This document shows, piece by piece, positions 50,516-61,262 of a stretch of DNA of 61,262 nucleotides. The stretch covers positions 1 through 61,262 of the forward strand of contig JAUVYR010000002.1 in the NCBI GenBank assembly GCA_030602985.1, given 5' to 3'. Below the pieces are notes generated by a model. The model worked only from the letters and a program-made list of their open reading frames with translations, searched no databases and was not told the origin of the DNA. Origin of the DNA: Burkholderiales bacterium (GTDB taxonomy: Bacteria; Pseudomonadota; Gammaproteobacteria; Burkholderiales; Burkholderiaceae_C). The translations under genes and the position numbers were made by a program. Each line of letters begins with the position of its first letter. The stretch's first letter is position 1.

Positions 50516-50544
50516 ATTATAGACTGTTCGCAGGAACGACTCAA
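50516..50544 (-). promoter_or_regulatory. Sigma-70 promoter of the rpsF-priB-rpsR-rplI operon
   Basis: On the minus strand TTGAGT (50539-50544), a 17-base spacer and TATAAT (50516-50521) form a near-consensus promoter, starting about 55 bases before the S6 ATG. The -35 overlaps the stop codon of the upstream symporter gene. Confidence 0.8.
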
Positions 50545-52652
50545 GTCTGCCTGGGTAACTGCGACGGTTCGGCCCCTGAAGGGGGGATACCTCGAACGCG
50601 ATCAATCAGTGCCGACACCTCAGCAGATGGGGCGGGCGTGATCAGGCTGACCAACATCATCACGGCAAAGCCCACCGGCACACCGAATACGCCGGCTGAA
50701 ATGGGCTGTATGCCCCACCACAACTCGACTGGCCCCTGCAAACCGAAGACAGAACGCAGCCAGGGCTGGGTCGTGGCCATGTAATAAAAAGTCACGGCCA
50801 GACCACTGACCATGCCCACAACAGCGGCCGCCCCTGTGGTGCGGCGCCAGAAGATACCCAGCACCAAGGCAGGAAAAAACGCCGACGCGGCAATCGAAAA
50901 GGCTGACGACACCAGAAAAAGAATATCGGCAGGCTTCTGGGCAGCCACATAAGCCGCCGCCAGCGCAACCACCAGCAGAAGCACCTTGGAAATCGTGACC
51001 CGGCGGGCTGTGGCGGCACGCGGATCAATCATTTTGTAGTAGGTGTCGTGGCTAAGGGCGTTGGCAATTGTGAGCAACAGGCCATCGGCGGTGGACAGCG
51101 CGGCGGCCAACCCACCGGCAGCGACCAGGCCAGCGATGACATAAGGCAGGCCGGCAATCTCTGCCGTGGCCAGCACGATGATGTCGGTGCCGATCGACAT
51201 TTCGTTGAGCTGCAGCAAGCCATCCCGGTTGACGTCCTTGACCGTCAGCAAGCTGGCATCCACCTGGTTCCAGGCAGCAACCCAGGCAGGCAACTCGTCA
51301 AAAGGGGTCCCGACCAGTCCGTTGAACACTTCATACTTCACCATGACAGCCAAGGCGGGCGCGGTGAAATAGAGCAGACTGATGAACAGCAGCGACCAGG
51401 TGACCGAGTGGCGTGCCTGCTTGACGTCAGGCACGGTGTAGTAACGCATCAGGATGTGCGGCAGAGCCGCCGTACCGACCATCAGACAGAAAACCAGCGC
51501 CAGGAAATTGCGCCGCGACTCGTTGAAGAGGCGTTGCTCATCAGGACTGCCCTGCGGATCGCCTGCGAAAGCCTGGGCATGGGGGGGCATGCCATTCAAA
51601 GGCATGGATTTGGCACGTGCTTCAGTCAGCTGTCGACTCCAGAGAGCGACTGCTGACGACTCGTCACGGGGAATTCGGGACAAAGCAATTTCCGCCTCAG
51701 CCACCTCAGATGGAGACCCTTCAAAGGCCCTCAACACCTCCAGCCGGTGCTCGGCATTCAGACGCTCCTCTCTGAGGGCGGCAGCGGGGTCGTGCAGCTT
51801 GGCTTCGAGCAAGGCCACACGGGCCTGGAAGATGGATCGGACCTCGATTTCAGCAGGGTCCTGGATCAACTCCTGCTCACGCTCCGTGATCTGCTGCAGC
51901 TGTTGCCCGTAGACAAGCTGGGGAATCGGAAAGTCGGTCTGTTTGACGGACAGCCAGACCACCGGCAGCATGTAGGCCACGATCATCACGATGTACTGCG
52001 CGACCTGGGTCCAGGTGACGGCGCGCATGCCGCCGAGAAAAGAGCACACCAGGATGCCACCCAAGCCCAGAAAAACACCCACCTCAAACGCGACCCCGGT
52101 CAGCCGCGAGGTGATCAGCCCAACCCCGTAGATCTGGGCCACCAGATAGATAAAAGAACAGGCAATAGCCGCCAGCACACCCAGGACGCGTGGCCAGCGC
52201 TGACCGTAGCGCTCACCTAGAAAATCGGGGATGGTGAATTGACCGAAACGTCGCAGATAGGGCGCCAACAACAAGGCCACCAGACAATAACCCCCTGTCC
52301 ACCCCAGGACAAAGGCGAGTCCGCTGTAGCCATGCACATACAGAGTACCCGCCAGTCCGATGAATGAAGCCGCCGACATCCAGTCCGCGCTGGTGGCCAT
52401 CCCGTTGTAGACGGCCGGCACGCGACGTCCCGCGACGTAGTACTCCACCGGATCGATGGTCCGGCTCATGATGCCGATGGTGGCGTACACCCCGATGGTG
52501 GACAGCATGAATATCATGCCAATCCACGAGCGAGGCAGGCCCATCTGCTCCAGGATGGCCAGTCCAATCACAAAAAGAAAGAACAGTCCCGTGAACCACA
52601 GGTAGACCTTGTCCAGTTGCCGTCGAAACAGAGTCGGGGAGACGGGCTTCAA
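50541..52652 (-). CDS. Na+/solute symporter, VC_2705-like (SLC5 family)
   Basis: A 703-residue inner-membrane symporter of the sodium:solute family, related to acetate permease ActP. About 13 membrane helices surround family segments PVEYYVAGRRVPAVYNGMA, FIGLAGTLYVHGYSGLAFV in part, and IPDFLGERYGQRWPR. Two features stand out: a polar helical insert of about 140 residues (239-380) and an EF-hand-like loop DVNRDGLLQLNE (473-484). The start is TTG 52652 with GAGGAG seven bases upstream, one base after the DUF4212 stop, so the two are coupled. Substrate is unknown; short-chain organic acids are likely by family. Confidence 0.92.
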   Translation of the reverse strand: MKPVSPTLFRRQLDKVYLWFTGLFFLFVIGLAILEQMGLPRSWIGMIFMLSTIGVYATIGIMSRTIDPVEYYVAGRRVPAVYNGMATSADWMSAASFIGLAGTLYVHGYSGLAFVLGWTGGYCLVALLLAPYLRRFGQFTIPDFLGERYGQRWPRVLGVLAAIACSFIYLVAQIYGVGLITSRLTGVAFEVGVFLGLGGILVCSFLGGMRAVTWTQVAQYIVMIVAYMLPVVWLSVKQTDFPIPQLVYGQQLQQITEREQELIQDPAEIEVRSIFQARVALLEAKLHDPAAALREERLNAEHRLEVLRAFEGSPSEVAEAEIALSRIPRDESSAVALWSRQLTEARAKSMPLNGMPPHAQAFAGDPQGSPDEQRLFNESRRNFLALVFCLMVGTAALPHILMRYYTVPDVKQARHSVTWSLLFISLLYFTAPALAVMVKYEVFNGLVGTPFDELPAWVAAWNQVDASLLTVKDVNRDGLLQLNEMSIGTDIIVLATAEIAGLPYVIAGLVAAGGLAAALSTADGLLLTIANALSHDTYYKMIDPRAATARRVTISKVLLLVVALAAAYVAAQKPADILFLVSSAFSIAASAFFPALVLGIFWRRTTGAAAVVGMVSGLAVTFYYMATTQPWLRSVFGLQGPVELWWGIQPISAGVFGVPVGFAVMMLVSLITPAPSAEVSALIDRVRGIPPSGAEPSQLPRQT

Positions 52653-52653
52653 C

Positions 52654-52923
52654 TCAGGACTCCTCGGGCTCGCTGGCGGGTGGCGGATCCTGCAATCCGT
52701 ACAGGCGATCCAGCCGATTGGCGTACCAGGCATAAAACGCGATCAGTGCCAGGTAGACCAGCAAGGCGCCTTGAGCGGCCACCCAGAAACTGAACGGCCA
52801 GCCCATGAATAAAAACGACAACTCGCGAGCAAAAAAGGTCAGGCCGAACGACACAAGAAACCAGATGATCAGCAAGACCCCCGTCATTCGGCGCAGACGC
52901 TGCCAGTAGGTAGCCCCCCTCAC
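52654..52923 (-). CDS. DUF4212 sodium/substrate symporter small subunit
   Basis: An 89-residue protein with two membrane helices, matching DUF4212, which is almost always paired with VC_2705-like symporters. It shows TYWQRLRRMTGVLLIIWFLV and FARELSFLFMGWPFSFWVAAQ, the family hallmarks. The GTG at 52923 overlaps the previous stop as GTGA with GGAG eight bases upstream. Longer starts would overlap the preceding gene. Confidence 0.9.
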   Translation of the reverse strand: MRGATYWQRLRRMTGVLLIIWFLVSFGLTFFARELSFLFMGWPFSFWVAAQGALLVYLALIAFYAWYANRLDRLYGLQDPPPASEPEES

Positions 52924-53228
52924 CGGCAATGCTCCACACCGATACGCAAGCACCATTCGATCTTGAGCCAGGTCAGCGCCAGCCACATGCCAGCCATGAG
53001 CGCCAGGGCCAGGACAGGATGATGCTGTTCCGGCAGATGACGGGGCGTGAGGCGGGCCACGATCCACAAAGGGGGTTTGCAGAGAGCGTCAAGCACCCAC
53101 AGAAAGGGGTTGGATGCCATACCCTGAGGGGCCATGTGCCGCAAAAACAACCGAAGCAGCCCGCGACCCAGCAAGGCCAGCAAAGCCAGCTCGGCAAGCA
53201 TTTTCAGCGCGGTGATGGCCAATAGCAT
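52920..53228 (-). CDS. Hypothetical membrane protein in the symporter operon
   Basis: A 102-residue protein I do not recognise. It has a hydrophobic N-terminal helix (about 1-30), a polar middle with LDALCKPPLWIVARLTPRHLP, and a second hydrophobic helix (about 70-90). It begins with ATG after GGAG and overlaps the DUF4212 gene by four bases, so it belongs to the same transcript and may help assemble or control the symporter. Confidence 0.75.
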   Translation of the reverse strand: MLLAITALKMLAELALLALLGRGLLRLFLRHMAPQGMASNPFLWVLDALCKPPLWIVARLTPRHLPEQHHPVLALALMAGMWLALTWLKIEWCLRIGVEHCR

Positions 53229-53341: not shown

Positions 53342-54799
53342 ATGATCGACTCTGCTCAACCCCGCCATACGGACAACCCAGTCAACCTGATCACCACACC
53401 GGTGCGTCATCTGGTGAAGCGGCCTGCCGTGACGCTATCGCCGCAGACACCCATCATTGAAGCAGCGCAGATCATGCGTGACCAGCGAGTGTCCTCCGTT
53501 TTGATTGTGCAGGATGACGCCCTGTTTGGCCTGATCACCGATCGAGACCTCCGTAATCGGGTTGTGGCAGCGGGACTGGATACCCAGCGGTCCATCATGG
53601 AGATTGCCACCCTGGCTCCCATGACGATCGATATCCAGCGGCAAGCCTTTGATGCGCTGCTGATGATGGCCCGGCACAACATTCATCATGTGCCGGTGAT
53701 GGACGGACCAACCGTGGTCGGCATGATCACCAGCACCGACCTGACCGAACAGCAAAGCAATTCGGCGGTGTATCTGGCGGGCTCCATTTACAAACAAACG
53801 TCGGTCGAAGGACTGGTGGAGGCCAGCAGCCGGATCAAGCGACTCCAGCAAAGCCTAGCCGCAGCGCAGGCCAGCGCTTTCAGTACAGGGCACATCGTCT
53901 CGGCCATCACGGACGCCCTGACCTCGCGGCTGCTGCAACTGGGTGAGTTGCAACTGGGCCCAGCCCCGGTGGATTACGCCTGGGTGGCTGCGGGCTCACA
54001 GGGACGCAATGAACAGACCGCCAAATCCGACCAGGACAATTGCCTGGTGCTGGACGACGCTTATGACGAGGCGCAGCACGGAGCGTACTTTCGGGATCTG
54101 TCGCGGTTTGTCTGTGACGGGCTGGATGCCTGTGGGTACGTGTACTGCCCCGGCGAGATGATGGCCATGACCGACGCCTGGCGGCAGCCGCTGCGCAAGT
54201 GGAAGCAGTATTTTCATGGCTGGATCGACAAGGCCGAACCCAAGGCGCTGATGCTGACCTGTGTTTTCTTTGACCAGCGTTTTGTGTACGGTCAGCGTGC
54301 CCTGCTGGACGAGTTGCGCCAGGAGGTGCTGCAACGGACCAAGACACAACGGCTGTTTCTGGCTTTCATGGTGGGCAACGCCATCACCCACCAACCGCCC
54401 TTGAACTGGCTGGGCAACCTGTCTTTGATCAAGAGCGGAGAGCACCAGGGCGCGATTGACCTGAAGCACACAGGAATCGTGCCCATCATTGATCTGGCCC
54501 GGGTGTATGCCCTGGCGGGGGGGTCACCGGCGGTCAACACCAAGGAAAGGCTGGAGAATGCCGCCGCCAGCGGTGAAATTTCCGAACAACGTGTTCATGA
54601 CCTCCTCGATGCCCTGGAGTTCTTGAGCACTTTGCGCATCCAGCATCAGGCCCGGCGTATGTCCGATGGCCACGCGGCCGACAACTACCTGCGGCCCGAG
54701 ACGCTGTCCAATCTCGAACGAAGCCATCTGAAAGAGGCGTTCGGCGTGGTCAAAAGCCTCCAACAGGTGCTGGCCAGCCGCTACCCCATGAACCGCTGA
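53342..54799 (+). CDS. CBS-domain / DUF294 nucleotidyltransferase-like signalling protein
   Basis: A 485-residue soluble protein with two CBS domains (about 17-135), a helical linker, a GlnD-like nucleotidyltransferase domain (DUF294, about 150-300) with GSQGRNEQTAKSDQDN at 218-233 keeping the GS and two Asp of the fold, and a DUF294 C-terminal domain (about 330-480). CBS pairs usually bind adenine nucleotides, so it may sense energy state. It is divergent from the symporter operon and its stop is one base from the convergent exonuclease-fusion stop. Confidence 0.9.
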   Translation: MIDSAQPRHTDNPVNLITTPVRHLVKRPAVTLSPQTPIIEAAQIMRDQRVSSVLIVQDDALFGLITDRDLRNRVVAAGLDTQRSIMEIATLAPMTIDIQRQAFDALLMMARHNIHHVPVMDGPTVVGMITSTDLTEQQSNSAVYLAGSIYKQTSVEGLVEASSRIKRLQQSLAAAQASAFSTGHIVSAITDALTSRLLQLGELQLGPAPVDYAWVAAGSQGRNEQTAKSDQDNCLVLDDAYDEAQHGAYFRDLSRFVCDGLDACGYVYCPGEMMAMTDAWRQPLRKWKQYFHGWIDKAEPKALMLTCVFFDQRFVYGQRALLDELRQEVLQRTKTQRLFLAFMVGNAITHQPPLNWLGNLSLIKSGEHQGAIDLKHTGIVPIIDLARVYALAGGSPAVNTKERLENAAASGEISEQRVHDLLDALEFLSTLRIQHQARRMSDGHAADNYLRPETLSNLERSHLKEAFGVVKSLQQVLASRYPMNR

Positions 54800-54800
54800 T

Positions 54801-56996
54801 TCAGTACTTCAGTCGGGCGTAGTAGGTCTGCTGCGCCGCTGTTCGAGCCTGCCCCAGGGTGTGGATGCCCTTCTCGGCGAGCAGGGGAATGAGCTTGAGG
54901 AACACCTCAGCCGTGACCATGGCATCACCCATGGCCGTGTGCCGCCCGATCACAGTGACGTTGAAGCGCTCTGCAATGGCTTCCAGCCGGTGAGAATCCT
55001 GGTTGGGATGGATGACGGCAGACAACAACAAGGTGTCGAGGACAGGCTGGTCAAACACCAGCCCGGTCAGCTTCTCCTTGAGTTGCAGGAAACGCATGTC
55101 GAAGGCGGCGTTGTGCGCGACCAGAACGGTGTCCTGTGCAAACGCGTGAAAGGCGGGTAGCACCTCGGCGATTCGGGGTTGGCCCCTGACCATGTCGGGC
55201 GTGATGCCATGAATGGGAATGGACGCCGCCGGGATGCTGCGCCCGGGGTCAACCAACTGGTCAAAGCATTCCCGCCTGAGCAGACGTCCATTGAAAATTC
55301 GCGCGGCTCCGATCTGGATGATCTCATCACCCTGGGCCGGATTGAGCCCGGTGGTTTCGGTATCGAAAACGGTGTAGGCCAGCTCGGTCAGCGGCATGTC
55401 TTCAAGCGCCTTACTGGCTGGCGTGCTGCGGAACAGGTCGAAGTCGTAATATTCGGGACGGCTTTCGTTTCGGATGAAGGTGGCGGTATCGGCCGTTTCC
55501 TGTGGCGCTGCCGCTGGCAGCAGGAAGCGGAAGCAACCCGTCCCCGCAGCGGTGTCACATTCAAACCAGAACGCGCCGGCATGGCGCTCCACCACATCGT
55601 GAACCGACAGGGCCGAGACTTCCTGCCCCATTTGCATGGCGTCCTGATCCCACCCCTGCAATTGTTCGACGGTCACGTCGGGATGGCGCCAGCCGAGGTC
55701 GAGCTCGACCTTCTGCTGGCCCTGTGATGCCGGTCGCAAAGACAAGATCAGGGTCCGTACGGCAAATGTCGTCTTGAGCCTGGCACTCAGGTAGATCAGG
55801 GCCTGCAGAATGGAGAAGCTCTCGATGCGTAGCCACAATTGTGCATCCACCCCCTCTTCCACCACAGCCAATTCAAGGGCTTCTTCGATGCGCCTGGCGG
55901 CTGCGGCCATCAGATCGGCACCCAGCATGTCCTCCATGGGCCAGCGGGTGGTCAGCGGTGTGGTAGGGTCGTCAAGCAGCGACTTGATGCGGCGAGACAT
56001 GACGTCGACTTCTTCGCGGACCACCCCCAGAAACCGCTCGCGGACGGGCGCCTCCAGATCGGGGTAGTCCAGCATGTCCACGGCAGCCTGGATATTGGCC
56101 AGCGAGGCCCGGCTGCCCTCGGTCAGGCCCAGCAGGACACGCTCACGCTCAGAAGCCTGCTCCTGTTCGCGCGTGATGTTGTCCAGCATCAAGACAAAAC
56201 CGGACAGTCTCCCCTCCACGCTCTCGTCGTCAGTCGCACCCACTGCGCGTACCGGTGCCATCTGCACACGGAGCAGCTGGCCGGCTTTCGTGGTGGTGAC
56301 AAACTGTGCCACTGGCTGCCCTGCACCTCGCTGCATGCGCTGGCGAACGTTCTCCAGTGCATGGGCTACCAGCTTGCGGTCAAAAGCCGTGTAGATCGAA
56401 CGACCAATACCGATCAGCTCAGCCCCGTCAGCCAGCTTTGGCGATGACGACATGGCTCGAAACTGCATGCGCGCCCGATTGTTGTAAAGCAGGATACGGC
56501 CATCCAGATTGCAGACCACCACGCTCTGCGTCAATTCGGACATGAGTGCTGCCAGGCGCAGCTTTTCCTGCTCGATGTTCTGGGCGGCTTCCCGAACTCG
56601 GGCATCCATTTCCTGCCGCAGCGCTTCCCGTTGCACCACAAGCTGGTTGAAGAGGCCCACCAGCTCGCGGGTTTCCTGGTTACCCTTGGGGCGCAACTCA
56701 CGCACCACATCCGTTCGCAGCAACACGCGTGCCTCTTCTGCCAGCTGCACGGAAGGCGTGACCCAGTGGTCGAACCACCGCTTCAGGCTCCAGGCGATGG
56801 CAGCCATCCCCATGGCCCAGGTCAGGCAGATCAGGACCAATCGGTCCCCGAGCAACGACCAGGCGGTAGCCCGGTCAGCGGGCTCCATGGTCGCGCCGAT
56901 CAGCCAGAAAGTGATCAGCAACCAGATAACAGAGACACCTGCAGCCACCCCCAGCAGCCACCACAATCGCTTATCGGTTTTTCGGGCGCGCGCCAT
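54801..56996 (-). CDS. Membrane PAS/pseudo-histidine-kinase protein fused to a DEDDh exonuclease
   Basis: A 731-residue multidomain protein. Two membrane helices (about 11-34 and 52-72) are followed by a HAMP/coiled-coil-like stretch (80-150), a PAS-like domain (about 152-275), a histidine-kinase-like dimerisation helix pair (284-345) without the phosphorylatable His, and a degenerate ATPase-like region (385-495) lacking the N-box Asn and Gly motifs. The C-terminal DnaQ-type exonuclease (542-720) is complete: Asp545, Glu547, Asp633, His686 and Asp691. It is the last gene of the four-gene sensor operon, two bases after the receiver gene. Its nucleic-acid target is unknown. Confidence 0.9.
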   Translation of the reverse strand: MARARKTDKRLWWLLGVAAGVSVIWLLITFWLIGATMEPADRATAWSLLGDRLVLICLTWAMGMAAIAWSLKRWFDHWVTPSVQLAEEARVLLRTDVVRELRPKGNQETRELVGLFNQLVVQREALRQEMDARVREAAQNIEQEKLRLAALMSELTQSVVVCNLDGRILLYNNRARMQFRAMSSSPKLADGAELIGIGRSIYTAFDRKLVAHALENVRQRMQRGAGQPVAQFVTTTKAGQLLRVQMAPVRAVGATDDESVEGRLSGFVLMLDNITREQEQASERERVLLGLTEGSRASLANIQAAVDMLDYPDLEAPVRERFLGVVREEVDVMSRRIKSLLDDPTTPLTTRWPMEDMLGADLMAAAARRIEEALELAVVEEGVDAQLWLRIESFSILQALIYLSARLKTTFAVRTLILSLRPASQGQQKVELDLGWRHPDVTVEQLQGWDQDAMQMGQEVSALSVHDVVERHAGAFWFECDTAAGTGCFRFLLPAAAPQETADTATFIRNESRPEYYDFDLFRSTPASKALEDMPLTELAYTVFDTETTGLNPAQGDEIIQIGAARIFNGRLLRRECFDQLVDPGRSIPAASIPIHGITPDMVRGQPRIAEVLPAFHAFAQDTVLVAHNAAFDMRFLQLKEKLTGLVFDQPVLDTLLLSAVIHPNQDSHRLEAIAERFNVTVIGRHTAMGDAMVTAEVFLKLIPLLAEKGIHTLGQARTAAQQTYYARLKY

Positions 56997-56997
56997 G

Positions 56998-57366
56998 TCA
57001 ACCTCTCAGCATTTCACGCACCTTGTCGACGAGTTCACGGGTGGAAAAGGGTTTGGTCATGTATGCATTCACCCCCATTGCCAGGCCTTTGGCCACGTCG
57101 GTGTCCCGACCTTTGGCGGTCAGCATCAGGATACGTGTATCCTGAATGACCGGGCTTGCCCTGACTTCCTGACAGACTTCGAAGCCCGTCTTCTGCGGCA
57201 TCATCACATCGAGCAGCACGAGATCCGGGCGGTGCGTGTGGATGGCGTCCAGCGCCTCCTGCCCGTCTCTGGCCAGCAGGACCTGATAACCCTCACGCTT
57301 CATCAAAAATTCCAGTGAAATCAGGATGTTGGGTTCATCATCGGCAATCAGGATGGTGGCCGTCAT
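56998..57366 (-). CDS. Receiver-only response regulator
   Basis: A 122-residue CheY-like protein: acidic pair Asp9/Asp10, phosphoacceptor Asp53 in LVLLDVMMP, the switch Thr in LMLTAKG and Lys in MTKPFS. There is no output domain, so it must act by binding a partner. Its ATG overlaps the sensor-kinase stop as ATGA, so it is its cognate regulator, and the exonuclease fusion follows by two bases. CrbR-type partners elsewhere have DNA-binding domains; this one does not. Confidence 0.93.
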   Translation of the reverse strand: MTATILIADDEPNILISLEFLMKREGYQVLLARDGQEALDAIHTHRPDLVLLDVMMPQKTGFEVCQEVRASPVIQDTRILMLTAKGRDTDVAKGLAMGVNAYMTKPFSTRELVDKVREMLRG

Positions 57367-60092
57367 GTGCTGTCTCCCCGAGGTAACTCAAAACCAAAAG
57401 TGGCGCCTTGGCCAGGCTCGCTCACCAGCCACATGCGCCCGCCGAAATGTTCAACGATCTGCCGGCTGATGGGAAGACCCAAGCCCGTCCCCTGCGGGCG
57501 GATCACCCCCTCGCCCACCTGCCGGAATTTCTCGAACACCAATGCATGCTCATCAGGCGCGACGCCTGGACCATTGTCCTGCACCTCGACCACCACAGAG
57601 CCGGGCCGTGTGCGCAAACGGATGTCGATACGACCGAGGTCTTCAGGCACAAATTTGGCCGCGTTGACAATCAGATTCAGCATGACCTGCGTCAGCCGGT
57701 CGGCATCAGCGAGCACACGCACCGGGGTCTCCGGGAGATCCAGCACCAGCTGTGCACGCTTGTCTCTCAGCAACTCGATTGTGGTGTCGGCCGCATGTCT
57801 GACCAGCTCCACCAGATCGAGCTGGGTGTTGTGCCACTCCGCGTGTCCGGATTCGATCTTGGCCATGTCCAGCACCTGATTGACCAGACGGCTCAGGCGC
57901 TCGGTTTCAGAGACGATAATCCCCAGAAAGCGCTTGCGGTCTTCCAGGTGGATTTTCGGGTCGTCGAGCATCAACTCGGACAGGGTGCGTATGGCGGTCA
58001 AGGGCGTGCGCAGCTCGTGCGTCACGGATGACATGAAGTCGTCCTTCAGGCGGTCCAGACTTTTGAGCTGCTCATTGGCTTCACGCAACTCGGCGGTGGC
58101 CAACTCCAGAGAGCGCGACTTCTCCTCAAGCTCCTGTGAATGCAATCGCAGCCTCGTGGCCTCCTCGAGGATGTCCATCACATCGTCCAGACCCAGTGAC
58201 TCTTCCTTGACGACAGAGGCCACCATGACACGGGCCGAGGCACTGCCAATAGAGCCAGCCAGCAGCGTTTCGACGAACTGAACCAGCGCCGCATCGGCCT
58301 GCAACTGATCCACAGACGCCTTGCCCCTCTGGCGCGCGTATTCCAGAAAGGCGGCGCGGGCCTTGGCAGGCCCCATGAAACGCTCCGCCAGAGGCAGCAG
58401 GTCTGAGACCCGCGCCTGCCCGCGCCAGAAAACGGGTCGGGTCTCCGATGGACGCTCAAAAATATCCACAAACAACACCGCCTGACTGGTTTCACGAGCG
58501 GACGGCACCCGCCACAAAGAAACCAGCACATAGGCGCCGACATTGAGCAGCATGCTCCAGAACAGCGAATGCGTCAGGTTGTCCAGGCCCGTCAAGCCCA
58601 GCAAGGCTTCAGGTCGGAGCCAGGGGTTTCCGAACAGACCTTCCTGGAGAAAATCGTCCGACATCCAGCCCGATTTGGCGAGGGATGGGAGCATGAGGGT
58701 GTAGATCCAGACGGCAAATCCCAGGGTCAGGCCTGCCAGCGCTCCCTGCCGAGTCCCCCCCTTCCAGTACATACCCCCAAACAAGGCGGGAGCGAATTGC
58801 GCCACCGCTGCAAAACTGATCAGGCCGATGCTGACCAGCGCGTAGGCTTCGCCCGCCAGCTGGTAGTAGGCATAGCCGAGCAACAGGATCAACAGGATCA
58901 CCGAGCGGCGAATGTTCAGCAGCAGGCGCGTCAGATCCCGCCCCTGGGCATGCATCCAGCGCTTGGAGCGCAGCAGCAGCGGCATGACCAGATCATTGCA
59001 GACCATGGTGGACACCGCAATCGACTCGACGATCACCATCCCCGTGGCAGCGGACAATCCGCCGATGAAAGCCAGCAAAGCCAGTGCATGCCAGCCCTCG
59101 GCCAGGGGCAGCGAGAGGACAAAGGTTTCCGGATTGATGGTTCCGGAACCAAAGTACAGCAACCCCCCCAGCGCGATGGGCAACACGAAGAGGTTGATCA
59201 GGAACAGGTACAGCGGAAACACCCAGACCGCGCGTTTCAGGTGGCGCTCATCCACGTTCTCGACCACCATGACCTGAAACTGGCGGGGCAAAAGAATGAC
59301 GGAGAACATGGCCAGCACGGTCAGGGTGAACCACTGGGCATAGGCAAAGCTCTGTCCTTCTCCGAGCTTCAACAGATTGGACAGCTCAGGCACGTTGCTG
59401 GCCCGCTGAAAAATATCACCGACGCCATTGAAAAGCACGTAGGTCACAAAGACCCCGACGGCCAGAAAGGCCACCAGCTTCACCAGGGACTCAAAGGCAA
59501 TGGCAGCGACCATGCCCTCGTGCCGCTCCGTGCTGTCCAGGTGCCTGGCGCCGAATACCATGGTGAAACCGGCCAGCAACAAGGCGAGATAGAAGGTGCT
59601 TTCCTGCCACCACGGCAAGGCGGGTGACAAGGGCTCGCCCAGTGGAGTGGTGAGGACCGCGTACCCGACCGAAATACCCTTGAGCTGCAATGCGATGTAA
59701 GGCACGATGCCGAACAGGGTGATCAGCGACACCAGACCCGCGAGGAGCGGACTCTTGCCGTAGCGACTGGAAATGAAGTCAGCAATCGAGGTGATGCGGT
59801 AGGTCTTGGCGATCCGGATCATCTTGCGAACCACGAGCCACGCCAGAATCATGGCCAGCATAGGGCCGAGATAAATCGGCAAAAACCAGACCCCGGAACT
59901 GGCTGCACGGCCAACGCTGCCGAAATAGGTCCAGGCGGTACAGTACACCGCCATGGACAGGGCGTATACCCATGGACTGGCAATCCATGACCGGCCCCTT
60001 TGCGACTCCCGGTCTACCGCAAAGGCCACTCCAAAAAGCAGCAGCAGGTAGGCCAGAGAGGCTGTGATGACCAGCAGGGGTGACATGGGCAT
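57363..60092 (-). CDS. SLC5 symporter-histidine kinase (CrbS/MxtR-like)
   Basis: A 909-residue hybrid sensor: about 13 membrane helices of a Na+/solute symporter (1-530), a STAC-like linker (about 555-640), a coiled coil, then a histidine kinase with the H-box SVTHELRTPL (His692), N-box LNLIVNAAKF, G-boxes DNGPG and GTGLGL. Relatives such as CrbS and MxtR control acetate use through acetyl-CoA synthetase; that role here is inferred. It follows the 65-residue membrane protein by 15 bases and is coupled to the receiver gene. Confidence 0.93.
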   Translation of the reverse strand: MPMSPLLVITASLAYLLLLFGVAFAVDRESQRGRSWIASPWVYALSMAVYCTAWTYFGSVGRAASSGVWFLPIYLGPMLAMILAWLVVRKMIRIAKTYRITSIADFISSRYGKSPLLAGLVSLITLFGIVPYIALQLKGISVGYAVLTTPLGEPLSPALPWWQESTFYLALLLAGFTMVFGARHLDSTERHEGMVAAIAFESLVKLVAFLAVGVFVTYVLFNGVGDIFQRASNVPELSNLLKLGEGQSFAYAQWFTLTVLAMFSVILLPRQFQVMVVENVDERHLKRAVWVFPLYLFLINLFVLPIALGGLLYFGSGTINPETFVLSLPLAEGWHALALLAFIGGLSAATGMVIVESIAVSTMVCNDLVMPLLLRSKRWMHAQGRDLTRLLLNIRRSVILLILLLGYAYYQLAGEAYALVSIGLISFAAVAQFAPALFGGMYWKGGTRQGALAGLTLGFAVWIYTLMLPSLAKSGWMSDDFLQEGLFGNPWLRPEALLGLTGLDNLTHSLFWSMLLNVGAYVLVSLWRVPSARETSQAVLFVDIFERPSETRPVFWRGQARVSDLLPLAERFMGPAKARAAFLEYARQRGKASVDQLQADAALVQFVETLLAGSIGSASARVMVASVVKEESLGLDDVMDILEEATRLRLHSQELEEKSRSLELATAELREANEQLKSLDRLKDDFMSSVTHELRTPLTAIRTLSELMLDDPKIHLEDRKRFLGIIVSETERLSRLVNQVLDMAKIESGHAEWHNTQLDLVELVRHAADTTIELLRDKRAQLVLDLPETPVRVLADADRLTQVMLNLIVNAAKFVPEDLGRIDIRLRTRPGSVVVEVQDNGPGVAPDEHALVFEKFRQVGEGVIRPQGTGLGLPISRQIVEHFGGRMWLVSEPGQGATFGFELPRGDST

Positions 60093-60446: not shown

Positions 60447-61262
60447 TCAGCCGGCCAGTTTCTGCCAGGTGTCCACCACGCTGTCGGGGTTCAGGGAGAT
60501 GGAGCTGATGCCCTCGTCCTTGAGCCACTGGGCGAAGTCGGGATGGTCGCTGGGCCCCTGGCCGCAGATGCCGATGTACTTGCCCTGCGCGCGGCAGGCC
60601 TGGATGGCCTGGCTGATGAGCGCCGTGACGGCCGGATCGCGCTCGTCGAAGTCGTGCGCCAGCAACTCCAGGCCGGAATCGCGGTCTAGGCCCAGGGTCA
60701 GCTGGGTCAGGTCGTTGGAGCCGATGGAGAAGCCGTCGAAGAACTGCAGGTACTGGGTGGCCAGGATGGCGTTGCTGGGGATCTCGCACATCATGATGAG
60801 CTTGAGATCGTTCTCGCCCCGCTTAAGGCCGAACTTGCCCAGCAGATCGACCACGCGCTCGGCCTGCTTGAGGGTGCGCACGAAAGGCACCATCACCTGC
60901 ACGTTGGTCAGGCCCATGTCCTCGCGCACGCGCTTGAGTGCCTCGCACTCCATGGCAAACGCCTCACCGAAATCGTCGCTGATGTAGCGGGCTGCGCCCC
61001 GGAAGCCCAGCATCGGGTTTTCCTCGTCCGGCTCGTAGCGGCTGCCCCCGACCAGCTTGCGGTACTCGTTGCTCTTGAAGTCGGACAGGCGCACGATCAC
61101 GGGCTTGGGCCAGAAGGCGGCCGCGATGGTGGCCACGCCTTCGGCCACCTTGTCCACATAGAAGGCACGCGGGCTGGCGTGACCCCGCGCCACCGACTCG
61201 ACCGCCTTCTTCAGGTCGGGGTCCACCTGGGGGTAGTCCAGGATGGCCTTCGGATGGACACC
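60447..61262 (-). CDS. ppsA: Phosphoenolpyruvate synthase (partial, C-terminal part)
   Basis: PpsA makes PEP from pyruvate and ATP for gluconeogenesis. The window holds the last 271 residues; the gene runs off the right edge. This is the PEP/pyruvate-binding TIM barrel, with [14 protein letters not shown] at the cut end, [39 protein letters not shown] and the catalytic Cys in [16 protein letters not shown]-forming enzyme beside an organic-acid sensor and transporter fits growth on acetate- or lactate-like carbon. Confidence 0.97.

Follow-up and report, generated by a model that had tools for sequence, protein, structure and literature searches.

What is a catalytically dead histidine kinase, fused to an intact exonuclease, doing beside a response regulator that has no output domain? 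The question is raised by a gene, here called EXO, in a stretch of 61,262 nucleotides from a Burkholderiales bacterium (assembly GCA_030602985.1, contig JAUVYR010000002.1), the whole of which was analysed and is referred to as the window. EXO (54801-56996, minus strand) is a single open frame of 731 codons with no internal stops, and its product is laid out as two membrane helices, a coiled coil, a PAS domain, pseudo-DHp helices, a pseudo-CA domain, a linker and a DEDDh exonuclease. The original prediction, made from the DNA sequence alone, had proposed a pseudo-kinase/nuclease fusion working as a signal-gated nuclease coupled to the receiver. The observation held, and the interpretation was supported in part, namely for the fusion and for the coupling.

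The sensor-kinase layout that had been read into the N-terminal part is reproduced by an AlphaFold2 model of EXO (mean pLDDT 77; 86 for the kinase core modelled alone) in the order two helices, coiled coil, PAS, DHp helices and CA fold. The two predicted membrane helices (residues 9-78; 56763-56972), supported by the model and by hydrophobic sequence, are long (9-36 and 53-78) and joined by a short loop; the coiled coil spans residues 107-154. A PAS-like domain (155-273; 56178-56534) is indicated by the model and by weak PAS_4 matches, which were obtained for 25 of 61 EXO homologues (best 3.9e-5). The pseudo-DHp hairpin (274-342; 55971-56177), placed by alignments and the model, consists of helices 274-309 and 316-342 and carries Glu293 in the place of the phospho-histidine. 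The pseudo-CA domain of GHKL fold (350-495; 55512-55949), whose CA fold spans 355-495 in the model, has lost its ATP-binding motifs (W436, R406). A conserved linker motif, SRPEYYDFDLF, lies inside residues 505-522 (55431-55484), and the DEDDh 3'-5' exonuclease domain occupies residues 540-731 (54804-55379), all on the minus strand.

Pfam is nearly blank over the N-terminal 500 residues of EXO. A profile built from 18 EXO homologues matches solved histidine kinases (VicK-like 4i5s, 4.9e-14; HK853), and the core of the sensor kinase encoded nearby aligns to the profile of the pseudo-kinase with 98.7% probability (2e-16). Structure prediction likewise gives a DHp-CA fold, and the top Foldseek matches of the EXO model are the histidine kinases WalK, VicK-like and LOV-HK. 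The core alone matches histidine kinase CA domains with Z 15.3 (PrrB; rmsd 2.5 over 133 residues), and the DHp-CA structures that it matches include DivL (4q20, Z 13.9). The core of EXO is thus genuinely related to histidine kinases, although catalytically dead. It shares the domain layout and the DHp-CA fold with HisKA/HATPase_c sensor kinases (VicK, WalK, HK853); unlike these, it lacks the phospho-acceptor His, the N-box Asn and the glycine boxes, and it has a C-terminal nuclease.

The loss of the phosphorylatable His and of the ATP-binding motifs, anticipated for the window, extends to the family. Among 160 non-redundant EXO homologues the phospho-His column holds Glu in 139, Asp in 9, another residue in 12 and His in none. 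The ATP-binding Asp of the G1 box is replaced by Trp436 in 158 of 159, Arg (Arg406 in EXO) or Lys takes the place of the N-box Asn in 138 of 160, and no GxGxG motif was found in the EXO pseudo-CA domain. Since W436 and R406/Lys are so widely kept, the pocket is conserved and altered rather than randomly decayed. A working kinase masked by misalignment was rejected after the H-box column and the adjacent positions had been inspected in the 160 homologues, which showed no in-register His; a nearby His occurs solely in two sequences (L146, L024), in neither of them in the H-box register.

The exonuclease is the best-conserved part of EXO, with a mean column identity of 80% versus 58% for PAS-DHp-CA. 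Pfam RNase_T (PF00929) matches residues 543-699 with 1.8e-36. All five DEDDh residues named beforehand (D545, E547, D633, H686, D691) are present, and DEDHD is complete in 156 of the 158 homologues readable at those positions. Two full-length homologues of one genus (L054 and L055, in genomes G167 and G306) retain few or none of the five. In both, kinase and exonuclease sites are lost together, and neither genome has a close HK, the best SSS-type kinase match reaching 35-37% identity.

The exonuclease domain matches PolC/DnaQ proofreading domains (PolC exo Z 24.5), with which it shares the fold and the five catalytic residues; the PolC structure has 33% identity and superimposes with an rmsd of 1.8 A over 192 residues. 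These being the closest solved structures, and database labels being generic, EXO could be an ordinary DNA proofreading or repair exonuclease fused by chance to a degenerate sensor. We regard this as highly improbable. Unlike DnaQ and PolC, EXO is a membrane-tethered fusion, with membrane helices and no polymerase context, and its conserved linkage is to organic-acid genes, not to replication or repair genes. Identity as a Pol III epsilon subunit was rejected, as EXO scores far short of the cut-offs of the curated models (TIGR01406, 108.8 bits versus 222.7; NF004316, 108.8 versus 196). A pseudogene is excluded too, the reading frame being open in the window and in almost all homologues. Similar fusions do exist elsewhere under generic labels, as had been guessed, as 'exonuclease domain-containing protein' and once as 'DNA polymerase III subunit epsilon'.

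Which partners does the dead kinase core keep? EXO lies directly after a receiver-only response regulator (RR; 122 aa; 56998-57366, minus strand; PF00072, 1.8e-29) in which D53, T83 and K105 are present, with a single base separating the stop codon of the RR from the start codon of EXO. The RR start codon in turn overlaps by 4 nt the stop of an SSS (symporter)-type sensor histidine kinase (HK; 909 aa; 57363-60092, minus strand) with an intact H-box, THELRTPL. This kinase matches HisKA (6.6e-19) and HATPase_c (4.4e-28), and its SSF-like N-terminus scores 20.8 bits, just below the cut-off of 22.8. All 80 named loci have a receiver-only RR directly upstream of EXO and in the same orientation, and 69 of the 71 loci with enough flank have an SSS-HK upstream of the RR. 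More distant genomes often have the arrangement RR-EXO-HK, so that the pairing of RR with EXO survives rearrangement. Paracoccus denitrificans PD1222 has a run of overlapping genes, namely DUF294, a small gene, HK, RR and EXO, with overlaps of 4-11 nt. All 94 RR orthologues consist of a receiver alone, carry D53 and K105 and have at most 8 residues past the aligned receiver; the RR therefore has no DNA-binding output of its own. On a plasmid of Paracoccus sp. SMMA_5 (L302:4791-6901) the fusion is annotated as separate PAS protein and 3'-5' exonuclease genes; this pair follows DUF294 and RR, with no adjacent SSS-HK.

On the other side of EXO, 1 nt from its stop, a convergent gene encodes a CBS-DUF294 putative nucleotidyltransferase (53342-54799, plus strand; PF03445, PF10335, CBS). 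Beyond it are a sodium/substrate symporter small subunit (DUF4212/TIGR03647; 52654-53067, minus strand) and an ActP-like sodium:solute symporter of the VC_2705 family (50541-52733, minus strand; TIGR03648, 1.2e-233). Among loci with long flanks, CBS-DUF294 is nearby in 43 of 47 and an ActP-type symporter in 41 of 47. Upstream of the HK the window holds the end of a PEP synthase-like gene (60447-61226, minus strand); PEP synthase occurs in 28 of the 80 named EXO loci, as far as the retrieved flanks reach. The DUF294, ActP and PEP synthase neighbours point to acetate/pyruvate metabolism. The ActP-like symporter (730 aa) has an apparent insertion of ~130 residues, roughly at 275-406, around which many of its homologues split into two BLAST pieces, and it contains an EF-hand-like stretch, DVNRDGLLQLNEM. 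A small membrane ORF of 102 aa (52920-53228, minus strand), 78% identical in L032, overlaps the DUF4212 ORF, whose true start is probably later than the listed one.

Genomes that have lost the two-component pair bear directly on the function of the pseudo-kinase. Seven EXO-bearing genomes have neither an SSS-HK nor an RR orthologue in separate genome-wide searches with all candidates scored; six of them are at least 99% complete and one (G041) 74%. They represent four inferred losses on a tree built without the DHp columns. As a measure of erosion, the similarity of each domain to HK-bearing homologues was set against the expectation from PAS and exonuclease similarity. In all seven genomes DHp helix 1 (z -3.3 to -7.7) and helix 2 (z -3.0 to -6.2) fall far below expectation, by z-scores that ignore kinship. 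No such drop is seen in CA, PAS or exonuclease, and the linker shows it in one genome only. Of the sites shared by 80% of the HK-bearing homologues, helix 1 retains 4-8 of 10 in these genomes and helix 2 retains 1-4 of 6, against 96-110 of 112 for the exonuclease. The idea of erosion came from four family-f1 sequences and L065; for G783 (congeneric with G640) and G885 the HK status was settled first and the DHp examined afterwards, and both conform to the idea. Three HK-bearing sequences (L014, L091, L092) also reach a helix-1 z of about -3.

A precedent for a dead core that receives a regulator is Caulobacter DivL, which acts without kinase activity; its DHp binds DivK~P, and the substitution R553A weakens binding (PMC4211667). 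EXO and RR resemble DivL and DivK in the dead kinase, the non-His H-box, the PAS domain and the single-domain response regulator partner. R296 of EXO is the equivalent of DivL R553 and is kept in 156 of 160 homologues, three of the four exceptions being without HK and RR; A305 of the putative regulator-docking face is kept in 152 of 160. A dead H-box and a conserved putative docking face (R296, A305) thus occur together in EXO, as in a protein of the DivL type. DivL differs in lacking a nuclease domain and in having the CckA phosphorelay as its target, and binding of EXO to its regulator is what we infer. Because the DHp helices are eroded where HK and RR are absent, the dead DHp is likely a docking site for the RR, or for its kinase. 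The simplest reading is that the helices are kept for interaction with the HK/RR pair, most likely through docking of the RR as in DivL. Conserved gene pairing and selective DHp erosion together support the predicted coupling of EXO to the receiver.

The erosion data fit docking of the HK as well as docking of the RR, and since both are missing together the two partners cannot be separated by them. Instead of binding the receiver, the DHp-like helices of EXO might pair with the DHp of the SSS-HK as a heterodimer or helper, comparable to RetS acting on GacS; control between EXO and the kinase would in that case be direct, in either direction. SSS-HK and EXO are both membrane proteins with related cores. 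Moreover, one complete genome (L027; G016:C1:704146-705900) has an intact HK, RR and pseudo-kinase and an exonuclease frame that is disrupted downstream of the conserved DFDLL linker, which suggests that the pseudo-kinase may matter on its own. We nevertheless consider pairing with the kinase unlikely, as EXO is linked more tightly to the RR, which adjoins it when the HK moves, and as the putative regulator-docking residue R296 is conserved.

The exonuclease is intact in the genomes without HK and RR and must also work without RR control there. PAS, too, is conserved in these genomes, and a 507-aa TM-PAS-Exo protein without DHp and CA exists (L293), with DUF294, ActP and DUF4212 nearby and no HK or RR found in its 14-kb neighbourhood. 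EXO might accordingly be a PAS-gated exonuclease with a signal of its own, the pseudo-kinase core being a scaffold and the neighbours being clustered through shared use of acetate and pyruvate. This has a small chance of being right; it leaves unexplained why erosion in genomes without HK and RR is confined to the DHp helices.

Other variant architectures direct attention to the CBS-DUF294 protein. A related exonuclease forms the N-terminus of CBS-DUF294 proteins of 721 and 754 aa (L294:6525-8690 and L295:4915-7179), a fusion that is a direct functional link between the two, and a stand-alone exonuclease of 217 aa lies beside DUF294 and a hybrid SSS-HK in L292. With DUF294 near EXO in most long-flank loci, and 21-160 nt from it in three HK-less genomes, the exonuclease could primarily be the antagonist or partner of the nucleotidyltransferase, for example by stripping nucleotides that DUF294 adds to a transport or metabolic protein or RNA, two-component input being secondary. 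Among the alternatives this one deserves the most weight, and we still judge it rather doubtful. With 38-45% identity, the exonucleases of these fused and stand-alone forms are less closely related to EXO, and a partnership with DUF294 is silent on the pseudo-kinase and its dependence on HK and RR. Moreover, in Pseudomonas putida, deletion of the CBS gene PP_0354 has no phenotype, whereas deletion of the exonuclease gene PP_0353 has one (PMC9927547).

PP_0353 encodes an RNase_T-family exonuclease, shares an operon with the CBS gene and is regulated by MxtR/ErdR; its deletion, like those of mxtR and erdR, delays growth on pyruvate, and its authors speculate about a role in mRNA degradation (PMC9927547). 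Like the locus studied here, MxtR/ErdR (CrbS/CrbR) unites a symporter-type kinase, ActP with its small subunit, a CBS protein and an RNase_T-family exonuclease (PMC9927547, PMC8402216). The kinase with a symporter domain is thus common to the CrbS/R type and our locus; a regulator with DNA-binding output is not, since the MxtR/ErdR regulator binds DNA whereas the RR has no output domain. Compared by description, EXO has membrane, PAS and pseudo-kinase domains, and PP_0353 is described simply as RNase_T-family. From this context PP_0353 may be related to the exonuclease domain of EXO. The claim that the role of such proteins is undescribed stands for the fusion itself and is qualified by PP_0353 of the related MxtR/ErdR regulon, with its pyruvate growth phenotype (PMC9927547).

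Full-length EXO homologues occur in several classes of Pseudomonadota, widespread and far beyond chance, the closest named relatives being in Tepidimonas, Tepidicella and Hydrogenophaga-type Burkholderiales. At least 25 of 101 sampled genomes of the family to which the window belongs carry the fusion in whole or in part; top candidates per genome were scored in these tallies, so absences in them are lower bounds. By the same scoring, 19 of 280 sampled genomes have an SSS-HK without EXO. Several of these keep the RR, which must then have other roles. An OmpR-type regulator is found near some SSS-HK loci, but replacement of EXO by a DNA-binding regulator as the output of EXO-less genomes was rejected, as no consistent swap with EXO was seen. 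No description of the fusion was found in the open-access literature searched, and we know of no bacterial two-component precedent for a nuclease output via a dead kinase.

We therefore favour, with reasonable though not strong confidence, the view that EXO forms the output arm of a two-component system for sensing organic acids, in which docking of the RR on the pseudo-kinase switches the exonuclease. The SSS-HK would phosphorylate the receiver-only RR encoded beside it, and phosphorylated RR would dock on the DHp-like helices of EXO. A complex of a histidine kinase with its response regulator is known for HK853. The pseudo-kinase would neither make nor remove phosphate, the kinase scaffold having been retained as a receptor, as DivL is for DivK. 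Docking, together with the PAS domain, would shift the conformation or dimer state and thereby switch the C-terminal DEDDh 3'-5' exonuclease, which presumably sits on the cytoplasmic side of the membrane, close to acetate/pyruvate transporters. Our guess for the substrate is RNA, most likely short RNA or the mRNA 3' ends of carbon-metabolism and transporter genes, and not chromosomal DNA. Against EXO as the output stand the RR in several EXO-less genomes, the G016 pseudo-kinase retained without a working exonuclease, the intact exonuclease of genomes lacking HK and RR, and the loss of both sites in L054 and L055. The fuller proposal, in which RR~P docked on a dead kinase switches a membrane exonuclease so that an organic-acid sensor controls the turnover of RNA or nucleotide tags without transcription, is put forward tentatively, its chances being slightly short of even.

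The EXO model offers a testable explanation for the presence of an exonuclease in the Pseudomonas acetate/pyruvate regulon. If it is true, two-component signalling would act after transcription, through a nuclease gated by a dead kinase, and EXO would be, to our knowledge, the first pseudo-histidine-kinase to carry an enzymatic output of its own other than kinase or phosphatase activity. The idea drawn from DivL, that a regulator can be the input to a pseudo-kinase, would then extend to a widespread family.
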